This document shows, piece by piece, positions 49,749-54,152 of a stretch of DNA of 64,000 nt. Location: positions 1-64,000 of the forward strand of contig CAMKNZ010000009.1 in the NCBI GenBank assembly GCA_946414315.1, written 5' to 3'. The first letter of the stretch is position 1, and each line of letters opens with the position of its first letter. The position numbers and the translations under genes are program-made. Under the pieces are notes generated by a model. That model searched no databases and was not told where the DNA came from. It was given only the letters and a program-made list of their open reading frames with translations. This stretch comes from an uncultured Clostridia bacterium (GTDB lineage Bacteria; Bacillota; Clostridia; Christensenellales; Aristaeellaceae).

Positions 49749-50948
49749 ATGAGCAAGATTCAGATGAAAACGCCGCTGGTGGAGATGGACGGGGACGAAA
49801 TGACCCGGATTCTCTGGGCGGAGATTAAAAAAGAACTGCTTGAACCGTTTGTGGACCTGAAAACCGAATACTACGACCTGGGACTGAAACACCGGGACGA
49901 GACCAACGACCAGGTGACGGTGGACAGTGCGAACGCAACGAAAAAATACGGCGTGGCGGTTAAGTGCGCCACGATCACGCCCAACGCGCAGCGGGTGGAG
50001 GAGTATAACCTGAAGGAAATGTGGAAGAGCCCCAACGGCACCATCCGCGCGATCCTGGACGGTACCGTATTCCGCGCACCGATCCAGGTGAATGGCGTGC
50101 ATCCCACCGTCAGGACCTGGAAAAAGCCCATTACGATCGCCCGTCACGCCTATGGCGACGTGTATAAGAATTCGGAGATCCGGGTTCCCGGCGCCGGGAA
50201 GGCGGAACTGGTGTTCACCGGCGCGGACGGGAAAGAAATCCGGCAGACGGTCTTCGATTTCAAAGGCCCCGGAATCATCCAGGGAATCCATAACCTGGAC
50301 AGTTCCATTACATCCTTTGCCCACAGCTGCTTCCAGTATGCGCTGAGCGTGAAGCAGGATCTGTGGTTCTCCACCAAGGATACAATCAGCAAAACCTATG
50401 ACCACCGCTTCAAGGATATCTTTGCGGAGATCTTTGAGAAAGAATATAAAGAAGCTTTTGAAAAAGCCGGCATCACTTATTTCTATACTCTGATCGACGA
50501 CGCAGTGGCGCGGGTGGTCCGCTCTGAAGGCGGGTTTATCTGGGCCTGCAAGAACTATGACGGCGACGTGATGAGTGATATGCTGGCCACGGCTTTCGGT
50601 TCTCTGGCAATGATGACTTCCGTGCTTGTCAGCCCAAACGGACAGTTTGAATATGAAGCGGCCCACGGCACCGTGACCCGCCACTATTACCGCTACCTGA
50701 AAGGCGAGGAGACCAGTACCAACCCGGTAGCCACGATCTTTGCCTGGAGCGGCGCACTGCGCAAGCGCGGCGAGATGGATGATCTGCCGGATCTGCAGAC
50801 CTTTGCCGACAGGCTGGAGAAGGCAACGCTGGACACGATCAACGACGGTGTCATGACCAAGGATCTGGCTTTGCTGTACGAAGGCGAAGCAAAGGCCGTG
50901 AACAGCAAAGAATTCCTGGCTGAGATCCGGAAACGGCTGGAAAAATAA
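49749..50948 (+). CDS. icd: NADP-dependent isocitrate dehydrogenase (eukaryote-type)
   Basis: A 399-residue enzyme of the homodimeric type that begins with the eukaryote-like [15 protein letters not shown] and includes [14 protein letters not shown] and the substrate/metal segments [10 protein letters not shown] and [11 protein letters not shown]. It oxidatively decarboxylates isocitrate to 2-oxoglutarate and NADPH. It lies in the cytosol. GAGGAGAC precedes the ATG. It is monocistronic with a terminator. In an anaerobe it supplies glutamate carbon. Confidence 0.96.
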
Positions 50949-51041: not shown

Positions 51042-51260
51042 AGACATCCTGGGGTTCGCGACAGCTTTTCGGTTTTCCCCACATTTCACAAAATGGAGCC
51101 CGGGTCCAGTGAACGATATGCCATGCCCCCGTTTTTAACGCCAGGGGACGGCAGAAGCGTTCGGCAGGGCACCAGCCTGCTTTACAGAGCGGGTGAAAAA
51201 ACGAGGGCATCGGCTCCCTGGGGTTCAGAAAAAGACCTTCCGCATTACGGAAGGTCTTTT
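51042..51260 (+). ncRNA. Stand-alone structured RNA, unknown class
   Basis: About 220 nt between the consensus promoter at 51007-51035 and a terminator hairpin at 51231-51259. Helices visible by eye: ATCCTGGGG (51046-51054) with CCCTGGGGT (51216-51224) closes the molecule; GGAGCC (51095-51100) with GGCTCC (51212-51217) competes with it; ATGCCC and CGTTTTT (51123-51136) pair with AAAAACG and GGGCAT (51197-51210) as a long inner helix; two hairpins sit inside (ACGC/GCGT and GCAGG/CCTGC). No ribosome site or coding frame is convincing. It does not show the SRP, tmRNA, RNase P or 6S hallmarks that I know. Confidence 0.7.
51231..51260. terminator. Bidirectional terminator of the RNA and the MotAB-like operon
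   Basis: AAAGACCTTCCG pairs with CGGAAGGTCTTT around CATTA, with A-rich and T-rich flanks on the two sides. Confidence 0.85.
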
Positions 51261-51270
51261 CAATACATGC

Positions 51271-51753
51271 TTATTTGCCCAGCGTCAGCTTCGTTGTGAA
51301 AGGAATGCCCCAGAAATAATAGGAGACGGTCGCTTCGCGGACGGAATGCATCGCGCGATCAGTCAGGATTGTTGCAGACAGATCCATCTGTTTTCCGGAA
51401 GGAAGATCATATGCGGATTCTTCTCCGATCTGGAGGACGTCGCCCTGCATCGGGGAGATGCGGATTTCAATCACTTCTGCTTTCAGGAAAGAGTGATTGT
51501 TGAAATGAAGCGTATAGGTCAGGAACTGATACTGGTCCGCTGTGGTCAGGTCGTCATTTGTATAGCGTGTGCCGACGAAGGTCGAAGCGCTGACCTTTGA
51601 TTTCAGATTATCAAAGAAATCAATCTGGGTGATCCCGTCGGTGGCAATGCATTCCCTGAAAGTGATATCCAGTTTCGCGTTCAGATAAAGATATCCCACC
51701 GCAACTACGGCGACAAGCACCAGAATGATTAAGATAATACCAAGGGGTTTCAT
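51271..51753 (-). CDS. Membrane-anchored third component of the MotAB-like operon
   Basis: A 160-residue protein with one N-terminal membrane helix (5-25, GIILIILVLVAVVAVGYLYL) and an extracytoplasmic beta-rich domain (about 30-160) with the alternating pattern of LEA14/WHy-like sandwich domains. The family is not certain. It lies 21 nt downstream of the MotB-like gene on the same strand and before the shared terminator, so it is the third gene of the operon. Having its domain on the outside, next to the wall-binding MotB-like subunit, suggests a partner role, which is inference. Confidence 0.68.
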   Translation of the reverse strand: MKPLGIILIILVLVAVVAVGYLYLNAKLDITFRECIATDGITQIDFFDNLKSKVSASTFVGTRYTNDDLTTADQYQFLTYTLHFNNHSFLKAEVIEIRISPMQGDVLQIGEESAYDLPSGKQMDLSATILTDRAMHSVREATVSYYFWGIPFTTKLTLGK

Positions 51754-51774
51754 AATGCCAACTCCTTAAGATCA

Positions 51775-52728
51775 TTACTGGCCGGAGAGAATCTGGTTCA
51801 TTTCCTCGATCATTTCCGAATCCTTCAGACTGAACTTGAATTCCACCCGGCGGGAGGCGCTTTTGTCTTCCACGCCGTCCACATAAACCGGATCGGATTC
51901 GCTGCGTCCGGTTGCGGTCATGATTTCCTGCAGCTTGGCTTTCTGGGCGGAGGTGAGGGAAGGCATATTCAGGCAGTACAGCGAAACCTGCAGCGCGCGG
52001 TTCTGGCTCAGCTTCAGGTTGGATTCATAGGAACCGTCCGTATCTGTGTGGCCTTCGATGATGATTTCGCCGAGATAATCCGCATACTCGGGCCGCAGCA
52101 GCACATCCAGGTAGACGGGGATAAAGCTGTTCAGCAGTTCCTGACCTTCCGGCCGGATGGTGGAACTCCCTGTTTCGAACAGGACGGAACTGTCCAGTTT
52201 GATATCGCCGCTGTTCGGATCCACCGCAGCTTTCAGGTTGGCGGCGGAAAGTGTGCTGGACAAATCCTGGATCATCGTGGACCGGATGCCGATCAGCTTG
52301 TCAATCCGTTCCGCCTGGGTGGCAAGCAGGTCCTTCTGTTCCTGCAGTTTCAGGGTGGCGGCTTCCAGGTCTGCTTCCCTGGCGGAAAGGACGATCTTCA
52401 GATCTGCCAGGGACTTTTCCTGTTCGTCCAGCTTTACTTTCAGATCATCCAGATTACCCTGGATGATAACCAGCGTAGCTTCCTTTTCGTCCAGTTCGTC
52501 CCGGGCCAGCCGCAGGTCGATGGCCTGCTGGTCCAATACGATCTGCTGGTCGTTCAGCTCCTTCGTCTTGGTTTCCAGCATGGTAAAATATTGGTAAAGA
52601 CTGTAGGTGAGGATCAGGACAAAGATGAGCAGCAGGGCGGCCATCATATCCGAATAGCTGATCCAGCTGGCGCCGGTTCCGGAAGAGCCTCTCCCGGCAC
52701 GTCGGTTATGGATACGTTGACGCGCCAT
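51775..52728 (-). CDS. MotB/OmpA-family (ZorB-like) wall-binding stator subunit
   Basis: A 317-residue protein. A short basic N-terminus is followed by one membrane helix with the stator-type Asp (Asp27 in SWISYSDMMAALLLIF), as in MotB and ZorB proton-carrying helices. Residues 55-150 are a long coiled coil built from Leu/Asp/Glu heptads. Residues 170-310 are an OmpA-like peptidoglycan-binding domain with EGHTDTDGS and the N-x-x-L-S-x-x-R-A motif (SNLKLSQNRALQV). Its start is 2 nt after the MotA-like stop. There are no flagellar genes in the window, so this is not a classical flagellar stator. Confidence 0.85.
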   Translation of the reverse strand: MARQRIHNRRAGRGSSGTGASWISYSDMMAALLLIFVLILTYSLYQYFTMLETKTKELNDQQIVLDQQAIDLRLARDELDEKEATLVIIQGNLDDLKVKLDEQEKSLADLKIVLSAREADLEAATLKLQEQKDLLATQAERIDKLIGIRSTMIQDLSSTLSAANLKAAVDPNSGDIKLDSSVLFETGSSTIRPEGQELLNSFIPVYLDVLLRPEYADYLGEIIIEGHTDTDGSYESNLKLSQNRALQVSLYCLNMPSLTSAQKAKLQEIMTATGRSESDPVYVDGVEDKSASRRVEFKFSLKDSEMIEEMNQILSGQ

Positions 52729-52730
52729 GA

Positions 52731-54020
52731 TCAGGCCTCCTCCGACAGACGGGCGAGGGTATCGGAAACGGTTTTCACCTGGTCGTTCAGGCCGGTCATC
52801 AGAGCGCGGATCTCTTCAAGAGTTTTGTCCGCAGAGGAACCGTCGGGAACGGAAAGGCCCTGCATTTTTTCAGTCAGGCCGCTGATCAAAGCCGTCATAT
52901 CCTTGCTCTCCCGGCGCATTTCACCGAGCAGTTCGGCTGCGTTCTTCTCAAAGTTTTCATCCCGGTCGCTGACTTTGTCGATCCGGGTCATATAGCTGTC
53001 AAACTGGTCCAAGGCATGGGAGGTGACCTCCTGCAGGGAACGGGCGTTGCGCACGATGCCTTCCGCGGCGGTAAGGTTTTCACCGGTGGCGGCGGCGGCG
53101 CGAAGCTGGCTCTGTTCCAGGTTGCCCATGGTCTGGGCAAGGGAGGAGAACTGGTTTCCCAGACTCCGGTCCATTTCAGACAGGAAGCGGCTGACGATAT
53201 GGTTGACGCCCTCGATCTGGTTGCGGGTCGTGCCGACGATGAAGCGGTCCATGGACTCGGCCACAGGATTCATGGTCATGGAAATGGAGCGGCTGACGCT
53301 GTCCGCCAGGCGGTCCACCAGTTTGTCGTTGATGCCCTGGAGCATGAAGTTCCGGTCCTGATTCTGGATGATCATCTGGACGTCGTTATCCAGCGGACGG
53401 GACATGGCCAGTTGGGTGAAGGAGGACACAAAGTCATCGATCGCCCGGTAGCTGGAGCCCTGGGAGATCCGGTTGATCATGTTGAAGATTAGGCTGCAGC
53501 TGATACCGGCCACAGAGGTGCCGAAAGCGAATTTCATGCCGCTCAGCAGATCCGGGATGCCCTGGATCAGCTGAGTGGAATCGGCAAAGTTCAGGGAGGA
53601 AAGACCGCGGGACAGGCCCATGAATGTACCCAGGATGCCCAGGGAGGTCAGCAGGCTCGGGATCAGTTCAGCCAGGCCGGCATTACCGGGACCGTGGGTT
53701 ACCGTATCGTCGTTGATATAGTCCTCCACGTTAGTGGGAAGACCGCGGCGGTCCAGCTGTTCCGCGTTCTGGAGGAAACGGAGCCAGCTGCCTTTCAGGC
53801 GCTTGCCGACAAAACGGGCTTCCTGCCAGACGGGTTTCTCCAGCTGCTTGCCGGCATTTTCCTGCAGGCGGGTGATGGCCCGGCGCAGGGCAGCGGTGGT
53901 TCGCCACAGCGGGATCAGACACTTGAACAGACCGATCAGCGTGACAACCGCAATGGCACCGTATACAACATAATCAGCGATGTTCGGAAGGATCGCCGTT
54001 ACTTTCGAAAGATCAGGCAA
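52731..54020 (-). CDS. MotA/TolQ/ExbB-family (ZorA-like) proton-channel subunit with long tail
   Basis: A 429-residue protein. A first helix (about 15-35) is followed by a cytoplasmic loop and by the two channel helices LIPSLLTSLGILGTFMGL (about 118-138) and GMKFAFGTSVAGISCSLIFN (about 163-183), with the conserved Gly/Thr positions of the MotA/TolQ/ExbB fold. A cytoplasmic helical tail of about 240 residues (190-429) with coiled-coil character follows. Such a long tail is the feature of Zorya ZorA and is not found in ExbB. It is the first gene of a minus-strand operon with an extended -10 promoter at 54054-54062 and a terminator upstream. Confidence 0.85.
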   Translation of the reverse strand: MPDLSKVTAILPNIADYVVYGAIAVVTLIGLFKCLIPLWRTTAALRRAITRLQENAGKQLEKPVWQEARFVGKRLKGSWLRFLQNAEQLDRRGLPTNVEDYINDDTVTHGPGNAGLAELIPSLLTSLGILGTFMGLSRGLSSLNFADSTQLIQGIPDLLSGMKFAFGTSVAGISCSLIFNMINRISQGSSYRAIDDFVSSFTQLAMSRPLDNDVQMIIQNQDRNFMLQGINDKLVDRLADSVSRSISMTMNPVAESMDRFIVGTTRNQIEGVNHIVSRFLSEMDRSLGNQFSSLAQTMGNLEQSQLRAAAATGENLTAAEGIVRNARSLQEVTSHALDQFDSYMTRIDKVSDRDENFEKNAAELLGEMRRESKDMTALISGLTEKMQGLSVPDGSSADKTLEEIRALMTGLNDQVKTVSDTLARLSEEA

Positions 54021-54053: not shown

Positions 54054-54082
54054 ATTATATCATAAATGACACAATAATGAAA
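54054..54082 (-). promoter_or_regulatory. Promoter of the MotAB-like operon
   Basis: On the minus strand TGATATAAT forms an extended -10, with a weak -35 (TTTCAT) 17 nt upstream. The ATG of the MotA-like gene lies about 34 nt downstream. Confidence 0.65.
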
Positions 54083-54109: not shown

Positions 54110-54137
54110 AAAAAACAGGAAGGCAGACGCCTTCCTG
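54110..54137 (-). terminator. Terminator of the Sir2 gene
   Basis: On the minus strand CAGGAAGGC pairs with GCCTTCCTG around GTCT, followed by six T. It separates Sir2 from the MotAB-like operon. Confidence 0.85.
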
Positions 54138-54152
54138 CAGGAAACAGCGGAA

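Follow-up and report, generated by a model that had tools for sequence, protein, structure and literature searches.

A near-core ZorA/ZorB-type gene pair with a third, single-pass membrane protein and no Zorya effectors found nearby in one family of Clostridia

In the open-licence literature that we found, ZorAB is the core of a phage-defense system. A 64,000-nucleotide stretch of DNA from an uncultured Clostridia bacterium (the window) carries a ZorAB-like gene pair followed by a third gene for a membrane protein, and the locus raises the question of whether such a pair belongs to a Zorya system, to another known ion motor, or to a machine with a resident job in the cell. Among the open-licence papers that our searches listed, none described such a three-gene unit. 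The window comes from a genome bin of 2.24 Mb that is 60% complete and contains one match to the MotA_ExbB family.

The initial annotation had proposed three minus-strand genes that form one unit, and the list of open reading frames (ORFs) and the sequence placed all of them where they had been described. Specifically, gene 1 (52731-54020; 429 aa, TTG start) encodes a ZorA-like channel subunit of the MotA/TolQ/ExbB type, gene 2 (51775-52728; 317 aa) encodes a ZorB-like subunit, and gene 3 (51271-51753; 160 aa) encodes a single-pass membrane protein. The frames of genes 2 and 3 were kept in 32 of 37 genomes of the genus, which ruled out chance ORFs. A contig scan with gene 1 confirmed 96 relatives, and the best 80 were kept. 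In the loci from these best 80 of 96 relatives, the gap between genes 1 and 2 was -56 to 6 bases in 75 of 76 cases, and genes 2 and 3 overlapped by 4 bases in 22 of 76, which suggested coupled translation.

A shared terminator had been placed at 51231, and an intrinsic terminator hairpin was present 3' of gene 3 at 51229-51261 on the minus strand (-21.7 kcal/mol; z of -6.3 versus 200 shuffles), though it was not in the output of a simple terminator scan. The unit's own promoter, placed at 54054, turned out weaker than claimed. A perfect TATAAT seen by eye at 54054-54059 (minus strand) is a possible -10 element, but the -35 element is weak; the promoter is tentative because a consensus promoter scan gave none on the minus strand near this position. 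Further upstream, a terminator-like site found by scan (54115-54138, minus strand) lies 3' of the sirtuin gene sir2 and sets that gene apart from the unit. On the other side, icd (49749-50948) points toward the unit.

The neighboring genes appeared to be housekeeping genes (guaB, a cytidylate-kinase-like gene, icd, sir2, asd, nth, murI, and fusA); these names came from reading the translations, and Pfam confirmed only SIR2 and a DUF308 protein. As the initial annotation had noted, no flagellar gene was seen nearby, in this case in the ORFs read at 39723-64000. When 10 neighbors were scanned with PADLOC for linkage to a defense island, 8 had no match at 1e-3. The other two were the nth-like protein, with a match to a nicking-enzyme model (6.6e-15), and the kinase, with a match to a kinase fusion (1.6e-5); both matches were taken as shared domains, and no convincing defense gene was found among the 10.

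In the case of gene 1, the PADLOC models ZorA2 (8.7e-23) and ZorA1 (4.5e-22) matched, the NCBIfam ZorA_2 score (89.7 bits) was below its cut-off of 100, and the Pfam MotA_ExbB score (21.9 bits) was below the threshold of 22.9, with a value of 22.9 in a genome-wide search. The best matches of the gene 1 structure model were ZorA proteins, with low confidence in the model itself (mean pLDDT of 65.4, tail included). A MotA/ExbB-type channel with a cytoplasmic tail of about 240 residues had been described; the channel and the long tail held, but the model put the tail past the last membrane helix at about 225 residues. The gene 1 product is a ZorA homologue with a channel core and a long cytoplasmic tail. 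Its membrane core (residues 1-270) is conserved and its helical cytoplasmic tail (residues 205-429, approximately) evolves faster; within the genus, median identity to the window protein is 83% in the core and 49% in the tail. A conserved core with a divergent tail suggests that the motor stays fixed while its inner partner changes.

Gene 2 matched the PADLOC ZorB1 model (1.1e-68) and Pfam OmpA (51.2 bits, above the cut-off), and its NCBIfam ZorB1 score of 77.8 bits was far under the cut-off of 400. The protein has a transmembrane helix with Asp27, a coiled coil at about residues 50-165, and an OmpA peptidoglycan-binding domain at about residues 180-300, in agreement with its earlier description as a MotB-type subunit. 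When it was aligned to solved ZorB, the wall-binding residues were conserved, and D27, D229, R244, and R294 were invariant in an alignment of 36 sequences. The product is a ZorB homologue with the channel Asp and a domain predicted to bind the wall.

The results of profile searches, structure comparison, and tree building put the pair with ZorA/ZorB and not with flagellar stators or Ton/Tol motors, as the long tail and the wall-binding partner had indicated. Trees were built from 40 A and 54 B sequences, with 20 of the best-80 loci and the window representing the family. The family grouped with its paralogues apart from Zorya I and II, at support values of 99 (A) and 98 (B). In the B tree, 14 MotB-like sequences, labeled by reading, formed their own branch (support of 87). 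Several deep branches were poorly supported, and one paralogue (L222) was placed differently in the A and B trees. In the accessible part of one study of such motors, ZorAB was shown for comparison but left out of the phylogeny as remote (PMC12505986).

The possibility that the pair is the flagellar stator of a motile strain was examined with FlhA, which was absent from all 23 genus genomes searched and matched in 4 of 14 control genomes. Omp85 was absent from the same number of genus genomes (23/23) and matched in 7 of 14 control genomes. Each search sampled 14 genomes from other families of the order, one of which (G041) has FlhA. The absence of FlhA and Omp85 is in line with a cell that lacks flagella and an outer membrane. 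A stator for some unrecognized form of surface motility, such as gliding, could be proposed because the related pair AglRS serves gliding, according to the part of PMC12505986 that is accessible. However, no motility gene was present in the nearby ORFs read (39723-64000), and with FlhA absent from the 23 genus genomes we consider such a role highly improbable.

To decide whether the locus is a Zorya system, we searched for the effectors ZorC, ZorD, and ZorE, which had been reported absent from the surroundings of the pair. Models of the three gave no matches in the best 80 of 96 related loci, up to 6 kb on each side, with some of these loci cut by contig ends within the flanks. The models were built from genes of Zorya-type loci, so these training genes were recovered by construction; five ZorC, one ZorD, and two ZorE genes of the training set were checked with PADLOC, and some of them also with Pfam. 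Beyond the training genes, the models recovered L213 and L216 (ZorC and ZorD) and L215 (ZorE), and the custom ZorD model also matched a generic helicase of L219. In whole genomes, the NCBIfam ZorD model matched in 25 of 37 genomes, none above the cut-off (the best reached 240 of 1500 bits), and it also matched 11 of 14 ordinary control genomes. ZorE gave a weak match in 2 of 37 genomes, one of them in the genus (1/23), and none was credible. Cognate ZorC and ZorD, or ZorE, were not found at the loci, and the genus search gave no ZorD above the cut-off and no credible ZorE; a distant, unlinked effector may lie in the missing 40% of the window's own genome. Our verdict was that the unit encodes a ZorAB-type motor and is not a Zorya system by the defining effectors.

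A cut-down phage-defense sensor had also been suggested. In such a reduced and domesticated system, ZorAB would sense phage disturbance of the envelope and act alone as an ion leak or via an unlinked effector. The sequence and the model are nearest to ZorA/ZorB, and the accessible part of PMC8565338 describes type III Zorya, in which ZorAB works with other partners. In addition, an SNF2 helicase matching the helicase half of ZorD was present in 22 of 23 genus genomes, and the copy examined, that of L219, matched PADLOC ZorD1 at 2e-119. This helicase nevertheless scored better against DpdE (3.7e-139) and contained the bacterial SNF2_assoc domain in Pfam, and the ZorD-like helicase was far from the three-gene unit in G022. 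It was absent from the window's own 60% complete genome, and, as noted above, all ZorD matches were far under the cut-off and most controls matched too. The accessible parts of two studies also speak against this reading: ZorAB alone was insufficient for defense (PMC8565338), and component deletions in Zorya point the same way (PMC11890865).

The distribution of the unit bears on the same question. We searched 61 genomes, of which 37 belong to the genus (the window's own genome included). Gene 2 was matched in 32 of the 37 and gene 3 in the identical 32; the genomes without them (G015, G021, G026, G028, and G032) are 54-87% complete. Gene 1 was matched in 22 of 23 genus genomes searched, with a distant match in G021. 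The idea of a distinct system depended on a third gene that is conserved next to the pair in relatives, and gene 3 lay directly after gene 2 in 31 of the 32 genus genomes with both. The exception was G023, in which about 4.1 kb holding cellobiose-phosphorylase-like and phosphomannomutase-like genes (named by reading) separates genes 2 and 3; both inserted genes are on the opposite strand, so gene 3 is outside the operon there.

In a sample of 297 genomes from the order, 22 of 23 family genomes had gene 1, and 2 of 274 others gave weak matches. Gene 3 was likewise present in 22 of 23 family genomes, with weak, N-terminal matches in 2 of the 274, and across 398 genomes of the phylum it gave three weak matches besides the window's own genome. 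The genes were together in 19 of 23 family genomes, 12 by loci that were read and 7 by coordinate spacing, with gene 2 unread in the latter (G061, G148, G176, G189, G201, G224, and G277); the four exceptions were G235, G298, G308, and G255. The best 80 of 96 relatives from the contig scan were labeled Clostridia or Clostridiales (one Christensenellaceae), and many came from ruminant gut sites. Gene 3 was 3' of gene 2 in 76 of the 77 assessable loci in this set, one of them with a 4.1-kb insertion, when three loci cut before the gene 3 position (L159, L168, and L169) were left out. The best-80 sample favors close relatives, so 19/23 is a fairer linkage figure than 76/77, and the best-80 set and the genome surveys share some contigs and are not independent. 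L173 was the sole assessable locus without gene 3 after gene 2. At this locus (L173:7391-10091), genes read as M50-protease-like and scpA-like follow gene 2 instead.

We also examined 20 larger genus loci, 17 of which hold all three genes. In 10 of the 17, the unit lies between icd and one of sir2, DUF308, or asd; among the remaining 7, some had murI and fusA close by and others had a single one of these neighbors or none. The nearness to asd, murI, dapA, and dapB is probably that of one ancestral neighborhood. Within its family the unit is thus near-core and probably vertically inherited, and the order sample showed no convincing copy elsewhere. This is not the patchy distribution that PMC11890865 describes as typical of anti-phage systems. 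A near-core unit that often occupies one place, in a housekeeping setting in 10 of 17 loci, without ZorC, ZorD, or ZorE and with no convincing defense gene among the 10 neighbors scanned, weakened the suggestion of a defense sensor rather than disproved it, and we regard a defense role as distinctly unlikely.

The gene 3 product was modeled by AlphaFold2 (mean pLDDT of 93.5) as a helix at residues 2-25 followed by an Ig-like beta sandwich, which agreed with the initial annotation of a single-helix protein with a beta domain. The Ig-like domain is presumed to be outside the cell membrane. The window protein matched no family in Pfam, PADLOC, or NCBIfam, and the statement that it is no known Zorya part stood in that it matched no PADLOC model. 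Gene 3 is not strictly tied to the pair, since in three family genomes the pair lacks an adjacent gene 3 and in one gene 3 stands alone. In G235 and G298, gene 3 is elsewhere in the genome, beside a gene read as polA-like; in G308, a ZorAB-like pair is present and no gene 3 match was found; and in G255, gene 3 is present and no ZorA-like match was found. Another single-helix protein follows the pair in G235, G298, and G308. It is conserved among the three and has no convincing Pfam match. That it takes the place of gene 3 in three genera suggests that the outer module is exchangeable.

The alternative single-helix protein is located at L234:3177-3767, L235:2480-3076, and L237:9737-10300, and in L234 and L237 a coiled-coil protein with a membrane helix is encoded further downstream. 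The gene 3 homologue of G255 (L233:2687-3181) adjoins a gene for a UvrD-type helicase.

Some genomes also carry paralogous pairs. G006 and G033 have a second pair with a longer A subunit (496 aa) and B subunits of 699 and 667 aa, that of G033 containing two OmpA stretches by Pfam, and related second pairs were seen in part in G288 and G298. No gene 3 was found beside the second pairs that were read. Second ZorAB-like pairs with a long B subunit are located at L077:2351-5841, L076:6674-10260, L220:17305-19889, and L222:3223-5713; the L077 pair lies after fusA, and Pfam found two OmpA stretches in its B subunit. In a distant genome of the phylum (L211:4632-7652), the gene after a small ZorAB-like pair encodes one protein with both a cell-wall hydrolase and a peptidoglycan-binding domain, as identified by Pfam. 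In another genome of the phylum (L207:9576-13492), a ZorAB-like pair adjoins an NYN-domain protein and is perhaps a further Zorya-like arrangement.

The three-gene unit resembles Zorya I and II (PDB entries 8qyd, 8vvn, and 8vvi) in its channel core, channel Asp, OmpA domain, long helical tail, and A-B gene order. In contrast to these systems, it has no ZorC, ZorD, or ZorE that we found beside the pair, it is near-core in one family, it forms its own clade in trees, and its third gene encodes a single-pass Ig-like membrane protein. With Zorya type III (ZorA, ZorB, ZorF, and ZorG), it shares a ZorAB pair that has partners other than ZorC, ZorD, and ZorE. Type III is marked by ZorF and ZorG (DUF3348 and DUF2894) next to ZorAB, whereas the unit here has one partner gene, not two, and gene 3 matches no Pfam or PADLOC family; ZorF and ZorG were compared by description only. 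MotA/MotB belong to the same 5:2 ion-motor superfamily and have a wall-binding B subunit, but the genus described here lacks FlhA (23 genomes) and the B subunit falls outside the MotB-like branch. ExbB/ExbD and TolQ/TolR serve an outer membrane. In contrast, no Omp85 was found in 23 genus genomes, and the B subunit of the unit has an OmpA domain.

We think it rather probable that the unit encodes an ion-driven 5:2 motor of the ZorA/ZorB kind that is anchored to the wall, inherited vertically, and equipped with a third subunit specific to the lineage, likely for wall or envelope upkeep and not for phage defense. By homology, five ZorA-like proteins would surround two ZorB-like helices, ion flow past Asp27 would turn the ring, the OmpA domains would fix the axle to peptidoglycan, and the bundled ZorA tails would pass motion into the cytoplasm. 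The third protein would lie between the membrane and the wall, near the ZorA collar and with its Ig-like domain outside, and it may act as a gate for the motor or link it to a partner in the wall or envelope. The motor would serve to maintain the wall or envelope of a gut lineage that has a single membrane and no flagella.

The same parts could instead form a sensor of wall damage or turgor and not a force generator; the wall-anchored ZorB-like protein and the Ig-like protein would sense strain and open a path for ions, and the ZorA tail would pass on the signal. The solved ZorAB complexes are thought to be closed and blocked by the collar, as stated in the accessible part of PMC11890865, and a variable tail on a conserved core would suit a lineage-specific signaling end. 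However, neighbor clustering in 50 loci found no conserved signaling gene beside the unit. Sequence alone cannot separate a sensor from a motor, and we consider the sensor unlikely.

Two features suggest a wall role for the proposed motor. One is the wall-binding B subunit; the other is that, in 7 of 80 loci (from the best 80 of 96 relatives), gene 3 is followed on its own strand by a gene for a D-Ala-D-Ala dipeptidase. Two copies of the dipeptidase were scanned and matched Pfam Peptidase_M15 (138.9 and 130.9 bits). The gene starts at about 9002-9035 in L161, L162, L164, L165, L166, and L167 and is located at 7018-7764 in L163, with an overlap between its longest frame and gene 3 in six of the seven loci. 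The dipeptidase link was limited to one branch. A non-flagellar machine for wall or envelope work, the other role that had been suggested for the unit, fits these results better than defense does, and its wall function is one that we infer.

A near-core ZorAB pair with a new third subunit and without adjacent effectors suggests a resident job in single-membrane bacteria. On a broader reading, which we hold to be plausible without counting on it, the unit would be a core, non-defense, ion-driven rotary machine of a single-membrane family, built from ZorAB and an exchangeable single-pass outer subunit and acting on or through peptidoglycan, and Zorya would be a mobile offshoot or cousin of such resident envelope motors. 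The ZorA/ZorB profiles of defense finders can catch genes that may be housekeeping, and this calls for caution. The unit bears on the question of where Zorya originated, and it is a natural system for asking what a wall-anchored rotary motor does without flagella, an outer membrane, or nucleases.
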